Source of the DNA: Anaerolineales bacterium
GTDB taxonomy: Bacteria > Chloroflexota > Anaerolineae > Anaerolineales > Villigracilaceae
Assembly: GCA_013140605.1 (NCBI GenBank)
Contig: JABFSL010000002.1
Coordinates: 1-64,000, forward strand
Reading direction: 5' to 3'
Length of the DNA stretch: 64,000 nucleotides
The notes under the pieces were generated by a model. It saw nothing but the letters and a program-made list of their open reading frames with translations, ran no database searches and was not told the DNA's origin. Position 1 is the first letter of the stretch. Every line of letters starts with the position of its first letter. This document shows positions 9,633-59,497 of this stretch, piece by piece. The position numbers and the translations under genes were made by a program.

Positions 9633-10371
9633 TCTTCTTTATTTACTGGTGTTTATTGTCGCTGTTTTGTATTCCAGCGCAGGTTTTGGCGGCGCGTCGG
9701 GGTATCTTGTTGCCATGAGTTTCTTTGGTATTCCCGCCAATGTTATGGCAAGCACCGCGCTTGTTTTGAATATATTTGTGTCATCCATTTCATTTACAAA
9801 CTACGCGCGCGCTGGACATTTCCGTCCGCGCTTGCTGCTGCCATTTTTGATCACTTCCGTTCCAGCCGCGTTTATTGGCGGAACCATAAAACTCTCTGAA
9901 CAGACTTACACGACTCTGCTTTATGTCGTTCTGACATATCTTGCGATCCGAATGATTCTACTTCCAACACTGACTGAAAAACTTAACTGGACACCGCGTC
10001 CCATTCCACTATGGGCAGCTTTGCTCAGCGGCGCAGCCATCGGTCTGCTCTCCGGCATGATCGGCATTGGCGGTGGGATTTTTCTTTCGCCGCTCATCAT
10101 CCTTATGCAATGGGGCGACTCGAAGCAAGCCGCCGCATCCTCAGGTGGATTCATTGCCATCAACTCCATCAGCGGTTTGATTGGACGATTTACCAATAAC
10201 ACGCTGGCTTTTGGCGAGTTCGGGTTTTTCATACTCGCAGTCGGCTTACTCGGGGCATTGATTGGCAGTCAATTGGGCGCGATCAAATTTTCGGGTGGGG
10301 GCGTCCGTCGTGCGTTGGGAACTGTTCTCATCATTGCCGTTGGGACCTACTGGTTTAACTTTATAAAATGA
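9580..10371 (+). CDS. TauE/SafE-family membrane exporter
   Basis: The 263-residue membrane protein has about eight hydrophobic segments and the two glycine-rich repeats typical of the TauE/SafE (DUF81) family, SSAGFGGASGYL near residue 32 and SGMIGIGGGIFLSP in the second half. Members move sulfur-containing anions such as sulfite or sulfoacetate. The open frame begins further upstream at 9535, but the ATG at 9580 is a more usual start for the family. It overlaps the end of fmdE by 53 bases in another frame. The partner in a molybdenum operon could be an anion exporter or importer; the substrate is not evident. Confidence 0.82.
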   Translation: MSLFASLKKSWSRSQLNSLLYLLVFIVAVLYSSAGFGGASGYLVAMSFFGIPANVMASTALVLNIFVSSISFTNYARAGHFRPRLLLPFLITSVPAAFIGGTIKLSEQTYTTLLYVVLTYLAIRMILLPTLTEKLNWTPRPIPLWAALLSGAAIGLLSGMIGIGGGIFLSPLIILMQWGDSKQAAASSGGFIAINSISGLIGRFTNNTLAFGEFGFFILAVGLLGALIGSQLGAIKFSGGGVRRALGTVLIIAVGTYWFNFIK

Positions 10372-11189
10372 ATCGCACAAAACCCGATTTACGCATCCTT
10401 GTCCGCGGTGCAAATGATGTTGGCTCGGCAGTCGCTCACCGTCTATTTACGGCAGGGTACTCCGTGGTCATTCACGAAATGCCACAACCCACCACTACGC
10501 GTCGCAGGATGTCCTTTTCCGACGCCGTCTTTGAAGGGCGTGTTTCATTGGACGGCATCGAGGCGCAATTAATAAAAAGATTGTATCTTTTGCGTGGCGC
10601 ATTAGTGTCAGATTGCTGTATTCCCGTTTTTATAAAAGATTTCTACCAACTTCTGAATACACTCCATCCTACTATTTTGGTGGATGCGCGAATGCGAAAG
10701 CATTTGCAGCCCGAAGTCCAGCGCGGACTGGCGGAACTGACCATTGGTCTCGGACCCAATTTCGTCGCGGGCGAAACCACTGACATTGCAATTGAAACAA
10801 GCCGTGGCAAATCGCTTGGGCAAATCATCGAACATGGCGCAGCAATTCCATTGCGGGGTGAGCCACTCGAAATTGACGGTCACGCGCGGGATCGATATGT
10901 CTATGCCCCCATTGCTGGCACATTCCACACTTCATTTCAAATCGGTGATTCTGTCATACAAAGTCAGGAGATTGCGAGCGTTGACTCAACTCCGCTTCTC
11001 GCGCCCATCACGGGCATCTTACGTGGACTTACACACGATAGCGTACCCGTTACCTCAAAGACAAAGATCATCGAAGTGGATCCGCGCATTCACAATGCGC
11101 AAACCTCGGGTATCGCAGAACGCCCCGCACGCATTGCAGAAGGCGTTCTCACTGCAATTCAAAATTGGGAAGCAAAACATGCTCATTGA
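10368..11189 (+). CDS. yqeB: YqeB/EF2563-family selenium-dependent molybdenum hydroxylase accessory protein
   Basis: The 273-residue protein starts with a Rossmann-like LRILVRGANDVGSAVAHRL and continues with VVIHEMPQPTTTRRRMSFSDA and VDARMRK, as in the EF2563/YqeB family. The family is found with selenium-dependent molybdenum hydroxylases and is believed to take part in maturation of their labile-selenium cofactor. Its ATG overlaps the exporter stop (ATGA). No hydroxylase itself is in the window. Together with the probable selenoprotein at 46668 this points to selenium use by the organism. Confidence 0.8.
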   Translation: MNRTKPDLRILVRGANDVGSAVAHRLFTAGYSVVIHEMPQPTTTRRRMSFSDAVFEGRVSLDGIEAQLIKRLYLLRGALVSDCCIPVFIKDFYQLLNTLHPTILVDARMRKHLQPEVQRGLAELTIGLGPNFVAGETTDIAIETSRGKSLGQIIEHGAAIPLRGEPLEIDGHARDRYVYAPIAGTFHTSFQIGDSVIQSQEIASVDSTPLLAPITGILRGLTHDSVPVTSKTKIIEVDPRIHNAQTSGIAERPARIAEGVLTAIQNWEAKHAH

Positions 11190-46617: not shown

Positions 46618-46655
46618 AAATAAGAGACAAAGATGGCATCTTTGTCTCTTATTTT
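46618..46655. terminator. strong bidirectional terminator
   Basis: AATAAGAGACAAAGAT and ATCTTTGTCTCTTATT form a stem of about 16 pairs with a four-base loop, T-rich on both sides. It ends the minus-strand operon and lies just after the TAA stop at 46668. This supports the view that the operon's last gene reaches 46668, not 46851. Confidence 0.8.
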
Positions 46656-46667
46656 CTAAAATTGATT

Positions 46668-47120
46668 TTATGGAATCCAATTGGACAACACGTTCACAAT
46701 TAGATCAGGATTTGCGGGATCATTTGTCTTGAGATGAACTCCGAAGTTGTGTGGGCCGTCCATGCCTTCGTGCATCATGAACACAGCGGATTCAATAATT
46801 GTGCTTTCACCAGGTTTGAGTACCATCGAACCGATGGTAAGTTGAGGAGGTCAGCACCCTTCTAAAACTTCGATATACGGTTCCTCTTTGAAACGTAATA
46901 TGTCATCGCCTGTATTGGTGACCTTTATGGCAAAGGTTTTTTCCACGTTGAATTTCACATCGCCATAATCAATTTTTTGCTGATCCACTGCGATGGATGG
47001 AGTTCCGCCGCCCTGGTTCGTGGAGATGAATATTGCGGCAATGATCAGGATGCCGCCAACGGCCAACAGCCCCCAGGGAAAACTCTTTTTGTGCTTCTGA
47101 CTTCTTTGTTTTTTGCTCAT
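46668..47120 (-). CDS. probable selenoprotein, DUF1573-like, with Gly-Cys-Sec-Pro-Pro
   Basis: The first 89 codons give a signal-anchor helix (residues 16-34) and a beta-rich domain (IDYGDVKFNVEKTFAIKVTN, TGDDILRF) that resembles DUF1573. They end at EVLEGC, followed by an in-frame TGA (46851-46853). The frame then continues for 60 codons, PPQLTIGSMVLKPGEST through MMHEGMDGPHNFGVHLKTND to a TAA at 46668, keeping the domain pattern. A bacterial SECIS-like hairpin stands right after the TGA. Sec90 next to Cys89 would be a redox or metal site; homologues would be expected to have CysCys. It is the last gene of a CuA/ferredoxin operon. Role in copper or thiol chemistry is inferred. Confidence 0.85.
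46821..46839 (-). promoter_or_regulatory. candidate bacterial SECIS element
   Basis: Just 11 bases after the TGA, TACCATC(G) and (C)GATGGTA pair over an apical GGTTC (or GTT) loop. The loop's GG begins 18 bases after the TGA. Known bacterial SECIS hairpins have a G-G-U apical loop at 16-37 bases from the UGA, so spacing and loop fit. Confidence 0.75.
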
Positions 47121-47129
47121 GGTATCTCC

Positions 47130-48131
47130 TTAATTGTGATAATCAAACTGGAACGAATACAGATACGCGATCAGATCCCAGATTTGCTCCTCGGTAAAAA
47201 TCGAGCCCCACATCGGCATGCCCGTGCCCATGCCGCCACGCAGGATTTTTCCCTGTAATAATGCGGGGCTCGCGCCGAGCATTCGCGTTGGATTGGTGAA
47301 GTCAACGGGAGATTGCATGGTCATGTTATCTGAGCCTGCCATCGTTTGCATGGATGATTCATCAGCCGCGGCGAGGTCATCCGCAAAGACACCGTTGCCC
47401 GCACCATTCTCACCATGACAGGCGGCGCAGTTTTGGGCAAACAGGTGCTGTCCATTTGCGAGGGATTCGGGTGTCGTGTTGGATTGCCAGATGGATGCAA
47501 CCACATTCCATCGTTGTATTTCAGTGAGCGACGTGGAACCCAATTCGTCAAATACTTGATAAGGTGAATTTCCGAGATAGTACTCAGTGGATCGGTCAAT
47601 TGGTAAATTGACTGCCAATTGCTGTCCATTGATTGCCGAGGGTTGAGAAAATGGAATAGAAGGCGAGTCGTGCGGAGCGTCAATGTCGAGGCCGAGAGTC
47701 ACATACATTGGAACAGAAGCAGGCTCAGGGCGCTGTCCTGAGCTTGTCGAAGGGTCCGCAGGTGAACCGCTGACTTCAATTGTGCCGCGCATGCGCCAGT
47801 GATTGATTCCGCACCAGCGCGTGCAGAAGAAGGTGTAAATCCCAGGCTTGTCAAAATTCAAGGTGACGTCAGCGACTTTGCCTGGCAGAACATCCACACT
47901 TTGCATGTCCATCTGACCGACAGCAAAACCATGAACTACATCGTCAGAAGTTAGTTTTAAATTAAGTGGCTCGTTGACATTGGCTTTGATTACATCTGGA
48001 CTCCAGCCGCCATCTTCTGCGATGTGTACATGAATAAGCGGAGTGTGTGACCAAAAATAAAGCGGCGCTCCAACTACGCTGACAATTGCTACTGTTATCA
48101 AAATGCGTGAGATGAGTTCCGAGCGTTTCAT
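47130..48131 (-). CDS. membrane-anchored CuA-domain protein fused to cytochrome c
   Basis: After one membrane helix (residues 11-27), a cupredoxin domain has the full CuA ligand set: His67, Cys103-x3-Cys107-x3-His111-x2-Met114 (CTRWCGINHWRM). A linker with repeat-derived sequence (DPSTSSGQRPE, about 126-136) follows. A class I cytochrome c domain with CAACH (about residue 236) and a distal methionine (GMGTGMPMWG) ends the protein. It resembles cytochrome oxidase subunit II of the caa3 type without its two-helix N-terminus, and no subunit I is near. It should pass electrons outside the membrane. ATGA overlaps the gene before. Confidence 0.88.
   Translation of the reverse strand: MKRSELISRILITVAIVSVVGAPLYFWSHTPLIHVHIAEDGGWSPDVIKANVNEPLNLKLTSDDVVHGFAVGQMDMQSVDVLPGKVADVTLNFDKPGIYTFFCTRWCGINHWRMRGTIEVSGSPADPSTSSGQRPEPASVPMYVTLGLDIDAPHDSPSIPFSQPSAINGQQLAVNLPIDRSTEYYLGNSPYQVFDELGSTSLTEIQRWNVVASIWQSNTTPESLANGQHLFAQNCAACHGENGAGNGVFADDLAAADESSMQTMAGSDNMTMQSPVDFTNPTRMLGASPALLQGKILRGGMGTGMPMWGSIFTEEQIWDLIAYLYSFQFDYHN
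47724..47758. repeat. CCTTCGACAAGCTCAGG-type repeat inside the CuA-cytochrome gene
   Basis: CCTGAGCTTGTCGAAGG with its partial inverted partner CTCAGGGCG is a member of a widely scattered repeat class. Read in frame it encodes DPSTSSGQRPEP in the linker between the two domains, where an insertion is harmless. Confidence 0.8.
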
Positions 48132-49459
48132 AAGAGCAACCACAGCATGACCAATGTGAGGATGAAACTAAAAGCGATGACAGAAATTGAAGACGTCCTT
48201 ATTTCGTTTGCGGCTTTCTGCGCCGTGCGCGCAGACCAGATCAAGCCGCCGACCAGTGCAAGTGTTTGCGCGGGTGCGAGAACGAACGTGAGCATCGGCT
48301 GCCATACGGCGTTGGCTGTTCCAAACAAATTCCAGCCAAGGCCGAGCGGATCAGAGAAAGCTGCGATTATGTATGAAGCATTGGTTAGAACGAAAGATAA
48401 GCTAAATGCAACCCAGAACATCAGGCCGAGAGGAATGAGAGCAGTTGCAAGAGAAGCAAATCGTTGTTTGAGCGGGAGAGAGCCTTTTGTTTTTAGAATG
48501 CCGAGCGTAAAGAAACCAGGAAGGATAACAAAGATAATCGCAAGAAATATGACTGCATAAATAAACCATGCGCTTGTGCCAACGTTGTAAGCCGCATCCT
48601 TGAATGCGCCCCACGGACCAAGCAAAACACCCGCATAAATCATAGCTGAACCGAGCATGATGAAAGCTTTGAAGGCTTCATCCATTCTTGTGGATGGCTT
48701 TGCGAGATCAGCAGAGAATGGACGCAGGTTGATCGCGATGTTGTCATGCGGGCAGGTGCGAATACATTCCATGCATAAACCGCAGTAGGTGTTTTTTGTC
48801 AGGCCTCCAGGGAATACATCCCACGGACAGCCATATCCATTGGCTGAACCGTTATAACAGGGTTTGCCTTCACAGGTTACACAGATTTGTTTATCTTTAA
48901 TTCGTAATTCTATCGGAGCAGTTTGTGAATACAAACCAATAAATCCACCGACTGGGCAGAGATAACGGCAAAAGGCGCGACGCTCGAAAATGGTACTCAA
49001 TCCAATCGCGGCGAAGAGCATGGCGGCAAGGACAATCCCTGTGATATTTGGGGTGGTGAGCAGGACACTGCTGAAGAGAGCCAACAATAGAAACGAAATG
49101 TTCTGCATCCAAATGTTGCGCAGAAACTTGGGCCAGCGCAGATTGAGCCATTTTGGCTTTTTATCAGGCGGACTTAATACTGCACCGCGTTGGAGCCATT
49201 CTCCAGGAAGCGGGATTGGGCAAACCGCGCACCATCCGCGCCCGAAGAATGGCACGGCAACGAGAATCAGGATTGCCCACCATGCGATCCATACGAAGAC
49301 GATGCTGAAATTGTGGCTTCCAACTGGTGTGCCGATCAGCCCGGCAAGGATGGCAAAGATGTATCCCACCAGCATCACGATAAATACAGCCAGTTGAGGA
49401 TAGCGGCTTTTTAGCGTGTTCTTTATAAAGGGGATACGAGTAAGTTCAAAGCGGCTCAT
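48128..49459 (-). CDS. NapH/NosR-like membrane ferredoxin protein
   Basis: The 443-residue protein has about eight hydrophobic segments and cysteine motifs in order: CAVCPIPLPG, FCRYLCPVGGF, CVTCEGKPCYNG, and a ferredoxin pair CGLCMECIRTCPHDNI. These are the polyferredoxin motifs of NapH, NosR C-terminus and CcoG-related proteins, which move electrons from quinol across the membrane to outer acceptors. It lies between two CuA protein genes, so it may be their donor. A paralogue is at 58118-59497. Confidence 0.88.
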   Translation of the reverse strand: MSRFELTRIPFIKNTLKSRYPQLAVFIVMLVGYIFAILAGLIGTPVGSHNFSIVFVWIAWWAILILVAVPFFGRGWCAVCPIPLPGEWLQRGAVLSPPDKKPKWLNLRWPKFLRNIWMQNISFLLLALFSSVLLTTPNITGIVLAAMLFAAIGLSTIFERRAFCRYLCPVGGFIGLYSQTAPIELRIKDKQICVTCEGKPCYNGSANGYGCPWDVFPGGLTKNTYCGLCMECIRTCPHDNIAINLRPFSADLAKPSTRMDEAFKAFIMLGSAMIYAGVLLGPWGAFKDAAYNVGTSAWFIYAVIFLAIIFVILPGFFTLGILKTKGSLPLKQRFASLATALIPLGLMFWVAFSLSFVLTNASYIIAAFSDPLGLGWNLFGTANAVWQPMLTFVLAPAQTLALVGGLIWSARTAQKAANEIRTSSISVIAFSFILTLVMLWLLL

Positions 49460-49474
49460 AATATTCAGCGTGAT

Positions 49475-49936
49475 TCAATCCATGTTCTTTGTTTGGGGTA
49501 TGAAAGACGAAAGAGGAAGGAAGCCAATCACGGCAAGAACTGCAAGACCAATGGAGCGATACAGCCAATTATTTGTCCCTACTGTCAACTTGCCAATCAT
49601 GAACGGATGCATCGCACCACAGGTAACATTACATCGAAAACGGAAGGAGCCTGGCTTGTCGGCAACGAAAGATAATGTTTTGGTCTGACCTGGGTCAGCC
49701 TCGATGGAAATATCGTAGCCATCCACATACAAACCATGCACCACATCCGTGCTGACGAGTTGGATATTCACCTTGTCGCCAGGGTTGACTTTAAACTCAG
49801 AGGGAGAATATGCATATTGTCGCGCGTCAATCCGAAAGGTCCGCTCCTGAGGCGTAATGGGTTGGACTGGCAGCGGCGCAAACGCCACAACCAGTCCAGC
49901 CATTACAAAGAGGAGAAGAATGAAGCGCGAGTTCAT
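49475..49936 (-). CDS. membrane-anchored CuA-domain cupredoxin
   Basis: The 153-residue protein has a signal or anchor helix (4-20), a cupredoxin domain with complete CuA ligands (His67, Cys102-x3-Cys106-x3-His110-x2-Met113, RCNVTCGAMHPFM) and a C-terminal membrane helix (about 128-145). CuA centres occur in cytochrome oxidase subunit II and nitrous oxide reductase; neither enzyme's catalytic part is here. The spacing of ligands is the same as in the protein at 47130, so the two are paralogues. It may accept electrons from the ferredoxin membrane protein. Confidence 0.87.
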   Translation of the reverse strand: MNSRFILLLFVMAGLVVAFAPLPVQPITPQERTFRIDARQYAYSPSEFKVNPGDKVNIQLVSTDVVHGLYVDGYDISIEADPGQTKTLSFVADKPGSFRFRCNVTCGAMHPFMIGKLTVGTNNWLYRSIGLAVLAVIGFLPLSSFIPQTKNMD

Positions 49937-49940
49937 AAAA

Positions 49941-50387
49941 TTAAGGGATGTTCGATGGGCCGTATTGGGAATAGGTTGCGTCTACGTATGTTCTGGCTTC
50001 CTGCGGACTTTTCCCTTCTCTCAACATCCGCATCACATCCTGGGTAATATCCACGCAGATGGAACAGCCAAGGGCATGATTGTCGAAGGTGATCTTCCCG
50101 CTGGCGTCCACTTCCGAGACGTAGCAATCGTAATTGGAGGTGTGTCCAATATCGCCGCATCCGCAATAGCAGGGAATATCCTGCATGATGTCGGGGTTCG
50201 CTGTGTTGAATTGATAGGCTTCCTGTACAGCCACGGGCGCAGACTGGACTTCGGCAGGCATTTGATCCATCGGCATCATGATCAGATGGGCATCGTTTGA
50301 TTTTGAAGTTGAGCAGGCGGAAATAGCAGTGGTCAATAAAACTGCTATGAGGGAGAGTAGTAAAAGTTTACGTGTTTTTGAAATCAT
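49941..50387 (-). CDS. PCYCGC-motif lipoprotein
   Basis: The 148-residue protein has a lipoprotein signal ending LLTTAISACST and the family signature PCYCGCGDIGHTSNYDCYV, followed by LGCSICVDITQDVMRMLREGKSP. Members of this family are exported and thought to bind metal or act in redox chemistry through the cysteine cluster. GGAGG stands six bases before ATG 50387. It is the first gene of the operon that leads to the CuA, NapH-like and selenoprotein genes, 79 bases after the shared operator. Confidence 0.88.
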   Translation of the reverse strand: MISKTRKLLLLSLIAVLLTTAISACSTSKSNDAHLIMMPMDQMPAEVQSAPVAVQEAYQFNTANPDIMQDIPCYCGCGDIGHTSNYDCYVSEVDASGKITFDNHALGCSICVDITQDVMRMLREGKSPQEARTYVDATYSQYGPSNIP

Positions 50388-50465
50388 ATTGGGCCTCCAG
50401 TATCGGATAGCCCAATGGTAGTCTGACAATTCAATTGTCTCCAGCGCAGGATGGCGGGGAAATTA

Positions 50466-57102: not shown

Positions 57103-57266
57103 TTGGACTCTTCAATTTCCCCGACCTTTAGATATTTCTCTGGCTCACGTTCAAAAAAAGTTTTGCATATTTGCGAGCAAAAATAATATGTTGTACCTTT
57201 ATACTGAACACTGGCTGTGGCATGTTGCGGATTCACCATCATGCCGCATACGGGATCTTTGATCAT
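57099..57266 (-). CDS. YHS-domain protein
   Basis: The 55-residue protein from ATG 57266 reads IKDPVCGMMVNPQHATASVQ, then YYFCSQICKTFFEREPEKYL. A longer frame to 57347 is not used because the ATG overlaps the stop of the CcdA-like gene (ATGA). It is the third stand-alone YHS protein in the window and ends the CcdA operon. Confidence 0.87.
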   Translation of the reverse strand: MIKDPVCGMMVNPQHATASVQYKGTTYYFCSQICKTFFEREPEKYLKVGEIEESK

Positions 57267-58039
57267 GATATTTTTCCTGAATAAGTCTTCTGTAGCGTGT
57301 GTCCACTCAAGTAGCCCAGATAGGCTGGAACAAGCGGTAACACGCATGGCGAAAGAAAGGATAACAAGCCTGCGATGATCGCTGTTAAATAGGTGGGCGC
57401 GGCAGCATATCTAGAAAATGCTTCGATGTAATAACCGTTCTTGAACGCCCAGATCGAGATCAGGTTCATCGTATTCGTCAGCAGTAGGACGCCAATCGTA
57501 ATGATGAACAATCCGCTGATAATCTTGAAATATTTTTGATACGGCCTCATGCGGTTGAGCCAACCTGATGCGCGTTCCAATCCGAGCGCCATCGCGAGAA
57601 ATGGAATGCCCAATCCGAGCGAGTAGCCTGAAGACAGCCACATCGCCTGTCCAACCGTTTGCTGGCTAAGGCCCATCGTCAGGATTGCGCCGAGCGTTGC
57701 GCCAATACATGGACTCCAACCCGCCGCGAAGAAAATCCCCATTAAGCCAGAGCTTGCATAGGTTCCACGCGCTGTATATTGCGTGCGTGTGTCAGCGTAG
57801 AACCAGGGGACACGGATCACTTCCAAGGTTGCGAGGCCAAAAATAATTACAACGACTCCGCCGATCCGCCCCAGCTCGTATTTGTATGCTCCAAATATTT
57901 GACCAAGCGCTGTCGCCGATCCGCCCCAGCCGACGATGAACACAAAAGAAAAACCTGCCACGAACAAAAGCGCGTGCAGAAATATTCTCAGGCGATCACT
58001 TTTTTCTGATGGTAACTGGGAGACTGTATGGGTCGTCAT
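57263..58039 (-). CDS. CcdA/DsbD-like cytochrome c biogenesis transmembrane protein
   Basis: The 258-residue protein has six hydrophobic segments in the CcdA pattern: LLSFLSPCVLPLVPAYLGYLSG near its start, and GWSPCIGATLGAILTM midway, each with one Cys in a Pro-rich helix. CcdA passes reducing electrons across the membrane for cytochrome c haem attachment or copper-site thiol reduction. Here it lies with CuA and ferredoxin proteins, so it may keep CuA cysteines reduced. It follows the NapH-like gene by 78 bases. Confidence 0.9.
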   Translation of the reverse strand: MTTHTVSQLPSEKSDRLRIFLHALLFVAGFSFVFIVGWGGSATALGQIFGAYKYELGRIGGVVVIIFGLATLEVIRVPWFYADTRTQYTARGTYASSGLMGIFFAAGWSPCIGATLGAILTMGLSQQTVGQAMWLSSGYSLGLGIPFLAMALGLERASGWLNRMRPYQKYFKIISGLFIITIGVLLLTNTMNLISIWAFKNGYYIEAFSRYAAAPTYLTAIIAGLLSFLSPCVLPLVPAYLGYLSGHTLQKTYSGKIS

Positions 58040-58117: not shown

Positions 58118-59497
58118 TTACATTCTCATTGCCATCGGAAGCGTGAACAGGATTACATTCATGACGGTAAGGACAACCATCAACACTGCGTAAGGGATAA
58201 ATGTTCCCCAAACATTGCCGCTGGTGTCGTTCATTTTTGCGATGCGATAAGCAACATAAAGCGAGCCGATGAAACCAAGAGCGAGCAGACCAAATTGCAG
58301 GAATTGAATGGTGCCCATATCCAGAATGGCGGGAGAAGCGCCGTGGAATGCCATTCCGAATAATCCCATGGCTGTGTAGTAAATGGATTTGCCTTCAGCC
58401 AAAAGATGGAACAGATTGTGGGCGATATGTCCCGCCATATCCAATGCGATGATGGCGTAACCGAAGCGGGCGAAGTTTTCGATCAGTGAAACTTTGTTGA
58501 ACTTGCCCGCGATCCATGATGTGAAGCCGAGCAAGGCTACTGGAATGGCGAGTGCAATTGCAAAGGTAATGCTGAATGTGACGTAGTAGCTGGTTGTACC
58601 AACTGCATTTTCCAGCCACTTCAACATCGAGCCCCACACTTCGAGCATGGTCACATTTTGTACGAACACAATTCCCATGATGACCGCCGAAAGGAAAGCC
58701 TCTTCAAGTTTGGGTTTGCGGATGAACCATAATTCCTTTGTGGGCGGACGCACGGTCAATTGAATTGAGTCGTTGGGACAGCCCTTGATACACTCCGCGC
58801 ACAGCACACAGTTGGCGCTGGAAGTCATGGTCTTGGGAAACTCAAACAGGGGACAAGGCGCGGAATTATCTGTGCCTTTATAGCAGGCGGCGATAGTGCA
58901 GGTGGCGCAGATCTCAGGTGTTCCGCGCAGGCTTAGCATACCGTTGCGGGCGTAGTTCCCAGATAACCCGCCGAGGAAACAAACGTAGCGGCAGAATGTG
59001 CGGCGTTCATAAAATGCGCCAGAAACGACTACGCCCGTTGTAAGCGTCAACATTAGGATGCCCGAGCCAAGTGGATTTTCCACCACGCCCCAGACATGGT
59101 CACTCCAGGTGATGAAGATAAAGAGTGCATCAATGATCCAGATGCCGTATTTTTTTAGGAACTTCGGAACGGGGCGGTTGTTACCGACAAAGTTTTGAAC
59201 AAGGTCATTAATCTTCGCAAATGGACAGATGGCACACCAGAAGCGTCCCAAAAACAAAAAGATGATCGGGATCAGCGGCCACCACAGCACCCAGGTCAGG
59301 GCTGTGCCGAAGTTGTCATGCGCAGAATCGGGTCCGAGAATCAGTTCGAACATGATGACCATGAAAATGATCAGGGTCGGCCATTGAATGATTCCAGGAT
59401 ACCAGCGGCTGCGCAGGAAACCATCGATCCATTTGTTGTTGAGCAGGTTGCCGCCGTTCAGCCAGGATGTGTTTTGATTGTTGATCGGAGTTGTCAT
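58118..59497 (-). CDS. NapH/NosR-like membrane ferredoxin protein, paralogue
   Basis: The 459-residue protein has about ten hydrophobic segments and cysteine motifs CAICPF, FCRYVCFLGG, CATCTIAACYKG, CPLF and the ferredoxin pair CVLCAECIKGCPNDSI. It is similar in order to the protein at 48128-49459. It would move electrons from the membrane quinol pool to an outer acceptor, for example a CuA protein. It follows the CopC/YtkA-like gene by 22 bases. The physiological acceptor is unknown. Confidence 0.88.
   Translation of the reverse strand: MTTPINNQNTSWLNGGNLLNNKWIDGFLRSRWYPGIIQWPTLIIFMVIMFELILGPDSAHDNFGTALTWVLWWPLIPIIFLFLGRFWCAICPFAKINDLVQNFVGNNRPVPKFLKKYGIWIIDALFIFITWSDHVWGVVENPLGSGILMLTLTTGVVVSGAFYERRTFCRYVCFLGGLSGNYARNGMLSLRGTPEICATCTIAACYKGTDNSAPCPLFEFPKTMTSSANCVLCAECIKGCPNDSIQLTVRPPTKELWFIRKPKLEEAFLSAVIMGIVFVQNVTMLEVWGSMLKWLENAVGTTSYYVTFSITFAIALAIPVALLGFTSWIAGKFNKVSLIENFARFGYAIIALDMAGHIAHNLFHLLAEGKSIYYTAMGLFGMAFHGASPAILDMGTIQFLQFGLLALGFIGSLYVAYRIAKMNDTSGNVWGTFIPYAVLMVVLTVMNVILFTLPMAMRM

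Follow-up and report, generated by a model that had tools for sequence, protein, structure and literature searches.

A Gly-Cys-Sec-Pro-Pro protein of DUF1573-like fold, very probably a selenoprotein, encoded beside CuA-type copper proteins in Chloroflexota

Relation to described selenoproteins and metallochaperones

To date, 119 prokaryotic selenoprotein families have been tabulated in a 2026 review (PMC13188914, available in part). Its Table 1 includes a DUF1573 selenoprotein with the motif UGC (PF07610; representative MDJ0815992.1), and the available part of PMC9312934 likewise enters DUF1573 as UGC. The protein considered here is encoded in a 64-kb window, i.e., the whole stretch of Anaerolineales DNA that was analysed. 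It resembles the UGC protein in belonging to the same broad domain superfamily and in having a single, here predicted, Sec in a cysteine loop. However, Sec is followed by Gly-Cys in the described protein, whereas the present sequence reads Gly-Cys-Sec-Pro-Pro, and the position differs. In a profile alignment of the canonical CGC protein L197, Cys89 corresponds to the first Cys, Sec90 to the Gly, and Pro91 to the second Cys; in the alignment of L157, also a canonical domain, the Cys-Sec loop meets a gap. The motif of the present family is GC[U/C]P, and the canonical DUF1573 members (L197 and L284-L293) are CGC-type.

The rule given in the accessible portion of PMC13188914 is that a different Sec position defines a distinct subfamily. 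The Cys-Sec-Pro family is filed, on sequence alone, as a putative new selenoprotein subfamily, related to the UGC DUF1573 group but not a member of it. A preliminary description of this DNA had called the gene an unannotated selenoprotein. No Gly-Cys-Sec-Pro-Pro DUF1573-like family is among the 119 as far as the review could be consulted, but DUF1573 plus Sec as such is not new, the UGC form being already known. What is novel is where Sec stands and in which motif (CU-P), how widely the family is spread over taxa, and its copper operon. The open PMC literature contained no report of a Gly-Cys-Sec-Pro family; a prior description is not excluded, most subscription papers being outside the scope of that search.

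Other described systems share single traits with this protein. The vicinal-CU selenoproteins in the available Table 1 of PMC13188914 (CopZ form 2, SaoL, SaoC, HgcA, MbdU, and KCU-star) have Cys-Sec in common with it, and several of them are named for soft-metal or organometal roles. They fall under other domain models, unlike the window protein, which is above cut-off in none of the NCBIfam models of June 2026. The CYCXC/PCYCGC family (NF041379, PF13798), to which an operon partner belongs, has Sec members elsewhere according to the same table. Here it is a neighbour of the selenoprotein and not a selenoprotein itself, being all-Cys. Among copper proteins, Sco and PCuAC are CuA metallochaperones that build CuA for cytochrome oxidase. 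The likeness to them is only proposed: a domain anchored outside the cytoplasm, with ligands from S/Se, Met, and His, and encoded beside CuA proteins. Their cysteine motif is a different one, and there is no Pfam sequence match between them and the window protein. Finally, the ASH/PapD-like 2qsv from Porphyromonas gingivalis, a protein of unknown function, has the fold in common, and a common fold shows no function.

The gene and its homologues

The gene lies on the minus strand of the window, and its features are as follows.

46668..47120, minus strand: predicted selenoprotein gene of 150 codons and a TAA stop; codon 90 is its single in-frame UGA
46851..46853, minus strand: UGA codon 90, very probably read as Sec (Gly88-Cys89-Sec90-Pro91-Pro92), judging from the conserved TGA and the tRNA-Sec with anticodon UCA in the genome
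47126..47131, minus strand: Shine-Dalgarno sequence AAGGAG, which shares bases with the stop codon of the CuA-cytochrome c gene upstream
46618..46654, minus strand: terminator-like 17-bp inverted repeat 3' of the TAA (-20.1 kcal/mol, z -6.7)

From the ATG (47120-47118), 89 codons ending in Gly88-Cys89 lead to the TGA, which is followed by 60 further open codons and the stop codon TAA (46670-46668). This is the frame that the preliminary description had given without its strand, and a terminator-like repeat is present where it had placed a strong terminator after the TAA. The overlap of the Shine-Dalgarno sequence with the preceding gene is the basis for inferring translational coupling to the CuA-cytochrome c gene. 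Searches of viral contigs yielded no relatives of the selenoprotein gene.

Homologues were selected by the motif C[C/U]P and a score of >60 bits, which gave 253 rows and, after pooling and removal of exact duplicates, 171 distinct sequences. Codon 90 is TGA in 161 of these and a Cys codon in the other 10 (5 TGC, 5 TGT), so that the Cys-Cys-Pro forms expected beforehand do exist. Only five other rows scored >60 bits without the motif, all of them C-terminal fragments from two genomes (G136 and G142). The 14 rows of the class search that fell below 60 bits and were excluded comprised 12 CGC-type DUF1573 domains (CGC, CSC, or CTC) and two genes cut by contig ends before the motif; the CU-P family is thus well separated from canonical DUF1573. 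Since the motif was a selection criterion, the conservation of C89 and P91 is not independent evidence. In an earlier profile set of 190 rows, the 16 rows without GC[C/U]P were fragments, canonical DUF1573 domains, one SCUP relative, and chance N-terminal rows; of the other 174, 74 repeated another row exactly over up to 270 nt.

The homologues spanning the TGA that had been called for as a check were found within the same taxonomic family, with gene matches in 57 of 152 genomes. Nearly all full-length matches there cross exactly one TGA, the exceptions being G081 (none) and G005 (a TGA and a TAA); G081 is the only one of the 57 genomes with just the Cys form. In wider samples, matches occurred in 81 of 396 genomes of the class and in 22 of 400 of the phylum, the 22nd phylum match (G331) being a canonical CGC protein. 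From a GTDB genome scan that gave 85 related stretches, the best 80 entered the analysis. Carriers of the Sec form include Thermanaerothrix daxensis GNS-1 (L153; Chloroflexota, Anaerolineae), which we take to be a strain in culture. A sequencing error or a pseudogene was ruled out by the spread of the TGA across many genomes.

The codons downstream of the TGA had been described as the natural second half of the domain. Compared with the window gene, the median dN/dS is 0.05 for 48 codons 5' of the TGA (finite dS in 28 of 63 pairs) and 0.06 for the 60 codons 3' of it (finite dS in 58 of 63 pairs). As dS is near saturation, these values merely indicate purifying selection to either side of the TGA. 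In a tree of 55 of 56 chosen rows (the other dropped out, probably through a shared name), built before the class-level Cys forms were added, the two Cys genes known at that stage stand in two separate places among the Sec genes. One of them (L165) is nearest to L168, a Sec gene in the same MAG, which suggests Sec-to-Cys changes, albeit with low support (90/63 and 90/44).

Several individual loci deserve mention. The loci L224 (G634) and L231 (G740) have Sec and Cys gene copies close by on one contig. The copies L081 (G136), L083 (G142), and L071 (G005) are frameshifted or truncated, apparently as pseudogenes or through assembly faults. Two Chloroflexota-like copies on short contigs (L127 and L166) stand in records labelled Pseudomonadota and Acidimicrobiia, and are possibly mis-binned.

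The downstream hairpin and the decoding of the UGA

The following element lies within the coding sequence, downstream of the UGA.

46821..46839, minus strand: SECIS-like hairpin, with an 8-bp stem and 3-nt loop or, equivalently, a 6-bp stem and a GGUUC apical loop

The hairpin begins 11 nt past the TGA, with its GG after 18 nt and a GGTTC loop, as the preliminary description had it, and folding of a 31-nt stretch supports it (-9.6 kcal/mol, z -3.3). The longer stretch of 47 nt gives a z value of only -1.2, and 25 of 200 shuffles fold equally well. According to the legend of Fig. 2 in the available part of PMC13188914, a bSECIS has an apical loop of 3-9 nt, an upper stem of 4-16 bp, a G in the first two loop positions at 16-37 nt from the UGA, and an MFE <= -7.5. 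With a 5-nt loop, a 6-bp upper stem, a distance of 18 nt, and -9.6 kcal/mol, the window hairpin satisfies all four of these rules, as far as the source gives them. It reaches no curated Rfam family, as a search of the whole window at the gathering threshold returned nothing.

Across the family, 151 of the 161 TGA genes pass the MFE rule on a 30-nt stretch. The hairpin is at the same place in 159 of the 161, and the 6-bp stem has all six pairs in 150 and five of six in 9. The remaining two (L270 and L273) have an extra codon between UGA and hairpin; their stem is kept 3 nt further on and can still fold, so that a change in spacing appears to be tolerated. In contrast, the 10 Cys genes have only 1 to 4 of the 6 pairs, and none has kept the SECIS stem, although two are equally stable (-10.2) in a different shape. 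The association of the stem with TGA versus Cys codons gives a Fisher p of 1.5e-14 when the two shifted genes are scored as misses, which is not a strict probability because the rows are related. Perfect stems of the same geometry were found at 180 of 44,148 other gene positions in an earlier 100-member set.

Covariation was assessed in 91 distinct sequences, where 98.7% of cells are paired. Double changes occupy 52 cells, whereas shuffles give 10.3 (none of 500 reaching 52) and slid controls no more than 15. Four of the six pairs change on both sides, which is not exceptional, since 89 of 500 shuffles reach four. In the closing pair, the third-position base of codon +6 (Ile/Val) meets that of codon +8 (mostly Ser). 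Of the 91 sequences, 86 have C-G here, 3 have A-U, and 2 have G-C, with no mismatch; the changes are silent in Val and mostly silent in codon +8. The pairing of these two mostly synonymous third positions is the strongest single point for a putative SECIS element. Codon-preserving shuffles retain a mean of 4.6 of 6 pairs, which indicates that the protein sequence alone favours the stem; they reach the observed pairing in a median of 9% of draws, a modest signal.

The genome of the window (G000, 96% complete) contains selA, selB, tRNA-Sec (selC), and selD, the four genes that had been proposed for a search. The selA gene scores 554.8 bits, and the tRNA-Sec, of 95 nt with anticodon UCA, 66.3 bits; there is no tRNA gene within the 64-kb window, the tRNA-Sec being on another contig. 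The selB gene is split across two contig ends, with its first 460 codons running off C37 (L039) and its C-terminal part at the end of C115 (L281). The selD gene (L055, C36) has an in-frame UGA of its own in the motif SACAGUASK. Of the findings that would have refuted the selenoprotein reading, neither of the two assessed was made: homologues do span the TGA, and selB and selC are not absent.

Among other carriers, selA was detected in 20 of the 21 with the Sec gene in the phylum sample, versus 322 of the 400 sampled Chloroflexota genomes. As selA is this common, its presence in carriers is barely informative, and the phylum-wide association of the gene with sel genes was dropped as evidence. 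One genome (G177) has the Sec gene and a tRNA-Sec with no selA detected. Conversely, 5 of the 57 carriers in the family have no tRNA-Sec above cut-off, all five with selA and in incomplete drafts, and the phylum carriers G261, G269, and G395 likewise have selA with no tRNA-Sec detected. The YqeB-like gene that the preliminary description had called a selenium accessory gene exists (window 10368-11189, plus strand), at about 36 kb from the selenoprotein gene. Its score is 218.7 bits against a cut-off of 220, and no link between the two has been shown; it suggests that the genome also has a selenium-dependent molybdenum enzyme system.

The in-frame UGA at codon 90 is, in view of these data, very probably read as Sec, giving a 150-residue selenoprotein, as first proposed, although there is no selenium measurement, peptide, or reporter evidence. 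SelB and Sec-tRNA-Sec would read the codon under the direction of the hairpin 11 nt downstream, as inferred from the known pathway. Decoding as another amino acid, whether as Trp by recoding or as Cys or Ser by a suppressor tRNA, is very improbable. Unusual Cys-tRNA systems do occur in Chloroflexi (SepRS/SepCysS, PMC5424206), but the available text of that report is without any mention of UGA. Moreover, TGA is a stop in other genes, the SECIS-type stem goes with TGA and not with Cys codons, and the UCA-anticodon tRNA-Sec is present together with the sel set. That the UGA is an ordinary stop, leaving an 89-residue product and a decayed downstream frame, is scarcely tenable: mechanical ORF calling does end there, and TGA is also an ordinary stop (of the 19 other window genes inspected, 6 end in it), but the TGA or a Cys codon persists in every distinct homologue, the downstream dN/dS is low, and the downstream half holds the conserved M116, M120, and H124 and, in the AlphaFold2 model, several beta-sandwich strands.

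Domain structure, copper operon, and possible function

Two features of the protein, outside the Cys-Sec loop, bear on its location and possible function.

47019..47075, minus strand: N-terminal transmembrane anchor, residues 16-34, inferred from a hydrophobic sequence and a lower-confidence AlphaFold2 helix
46743..46781, minus strand: Met/His loop FMMHEGMDGPHNF, residues 114-126, with conserved residues and an inferred metal-binding role

AlphaFold2 predicts a confident domain, with block means of 96-98 from residue 41 and 88.2 for the whole model. The fold is ASH/PapD/HYDIN Ig-like, and the best structural match is 2qsv (Z 13.3, rmsd 2.0 A over 104 residues). Two structure searches recovered the common ASH/PapD fold, with no function indicated, and a PDB sequence search returned mainly ciliary and OCRL Ig-like domains, along with chance rows. 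The earlier assignment as DUF1573-like stands, although the window protein itself reaches 19.0 bits in PF07610, below the gathering score of 26.1; among its relatives, 38 of 41 match that model at E<=0.01. Copper chaperone families, including Sco and PCuAC, are absent among its Pfam hits at E<=1. The most conserved positions outside the Cys-Sec loop include G53, N69, G71, M116, M120, G122, and H124; of the Met/His loop, M116, M120, and H124 are each found in 168 of 169 rows and H117 in 153 of 169. A distant Sec relative with a SCUP motif (L203, G165) is without this loop, and the Cys-Sec-Pro part may thus predate, or be independent of, the proposed metal site.

Upstream of the selenoprotein gene, the operon contains four partner genes.

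47130..48143, minus strand: fusion of a COX2 (CuA-type cupredoxin) domain to cytochrome c (Pfam COX2 and Cytochrom_C), directly upstream of the selenoprotein gene
48128..49459, minus strand: NapH/MauN-like polytopic ferredoxin (Fer4_5), with NapH model matches below cut-off
49475..49936, minus strand: cupredoxin with the CuA-like motif CNVTCGAMHPFM, from profile matches and the motif
49941..50429, minus strand: PCYCGC-motif protein (PF13798), Cys form, 99.3 bits against a cut-off of 25

The gene order in the window is PCYCGC, cupredoxin, NapH-like, and CuA-cytochrome c, with the selenoprotein gene last. Among the best 80 of the 85 loci, tblastn detected PCYCGC at 62, the cupredoxin at 59, the NapH-like protein at 60, and CuA-cytochrome c at 69; some of these loci are incomplete, and the cupredoxin total includes 6 hits that appear to be cross-matches to the COX2 domain. 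A gap of about 12 nt usually separates the end of the CuA-cytochrome c gene from the Sec gene downstream, but the Sec gene of some lineages is placed between its partners or ahead of them. The 10 Cys-form loci have PCYCGC on all stretches and the other three partners on 8 each; all four partners surround 8 of the 10 Cys forms, two of which (L224 and L231) also have a Sec copy. Both cupredoxin domains have CuA-like motifs (CTRWCGxNHWRM and CxxxCGxxHPFM) and match the CuA regions of CoxB and NosZ, below the whole-protein cut-offs of those models.

The PCYCGC partner also matches NF041379, the CYCXC "(seleno)protein" family, with 65.2 bits, under the cut-off of 90; two families with selenoprotein members elsewhere thus adjoin. 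A selenoprotein form of this partner was ruled out here by a motif scan of the loci, which gave 65 hits of the type CYCGC, CFCGC, or CFCTC, with CYCGC at 63 distinct sites; four U-containing hits, all from the minus strand of the respective locus, were judged to be due to chance. Window 58118-59497 (minus strand) holds another NapH-like ferredoxin gene, with weak matches, near a CopA-type ATPase gene and a gene at 57263-58039 that is presumably CcdA-like. High-identity copies recur near the Sec operon at several loci.

The product would be held in the membrane by its N-terminal anchor and would carry the vicinal Cys89-Sec90 pair on an extracytoplasmic Ig-like (DUF1573/ASH/PapD-like) domain that faces outwards, as inferred from structure and context. 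The Cys-Sec pair, together with Met116, Met120, and His124, may bind Cu(I) or may reduce the cysteines that serve as ligands in the adjacent CuA-type proteins; either activity would allow the CuA sites of the partner proteins to be built. The reading we put forward, at somewhat less than an even chance, is a copper/thiol-redox factor that helps to assemble these CuA proteins, and copper binding and CuA metallation are inferred only. The copper reading rests on the conserved CuA-type operon, found also around 8 of the 10 Cys forms, and on the near-invariant M116, M120, and H124. Against it stand the lack of a match to any known copper chaperone and the relative L203 without the Met/His loop.

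Membership in the CuA operon fits a thiol-redox or electron-transfer role as well. A selenoprotein acting in general extracytoplasmic thiol/disulfide or peroxide redox through a Cys-Sec selenenylsulfide, and not on copper, is a live possibility, if not a probable one. The motif of mammalian thioredoxin reductase is such a vicinal Cys-Sec pair, and the DUF1573-type domain has no metal family match. In the available section 7 of PMC13188914, most uncharacterised selenoproteins are considered likely redox proteins. However, disulfide exchange would leave the conserved Met and His residues unexplained, as well as the linkage to CuA-type proteins. Less likely, and indeed improbable, is a selenoprotein for protection against, or sequestration of, copper or another soft metal (Hg, Ag), without CuA building. 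Genes for a CueO-like multicopper oxidase and a CopA-type ATPase do lie upstream in the window, the latter recognised by a look at the sequence without a profile scan, and known CU-motif selenoproteins include the CopZ, SaoL, SaoC, and HgcA types (PMC13188914, as far as available). Yet these genes are less conserved neighbours: within flanks of <=6 kb, the CopA-type ATPase was found at 28 and the multicopper oxidase at 11 of the best 80 of 85 loci, versus 69 for CuA-cytochrome c.

The finding adds a selenoprotein family that occurs across many Chloroflexota families, and its Sec genes would be cut short by gene calling that treats TGA as a stop. According to the available part of its description, deep-Sep (2025, PMC12013277) keeps candidates with a known Sec homologue or at least two Cys homologues in the ten best hits; given the scarcity of Cys homologues, this filter may explain why the family was omitted, which is our inference. 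The family can be tested, as the named strain Thermanaerothrix daxensis GNS-1 carries the gene, and the Sec and Cys copies of L224 and L231 are a natural pair for seeing what selenium adds. The operon links selenium to CuA-type copper proteins, a link not found in the open PMC literature searched. In its fullest form, the assembly-factor reading would make this a widespread and mostly selenium-dependent (161 Sec to 10 Cys) copper metallochaperone or CuA ligand reductase, with a Cys-Sec and Met/Met/His site on an Ig-like scaffold; this remains tentative, with more weight against it than for it. If true, it would be, to our knowledge, the first selenoprotein tied to CuA assembly, and copper electron transfer would depend on selenium in many Chloroflexota.
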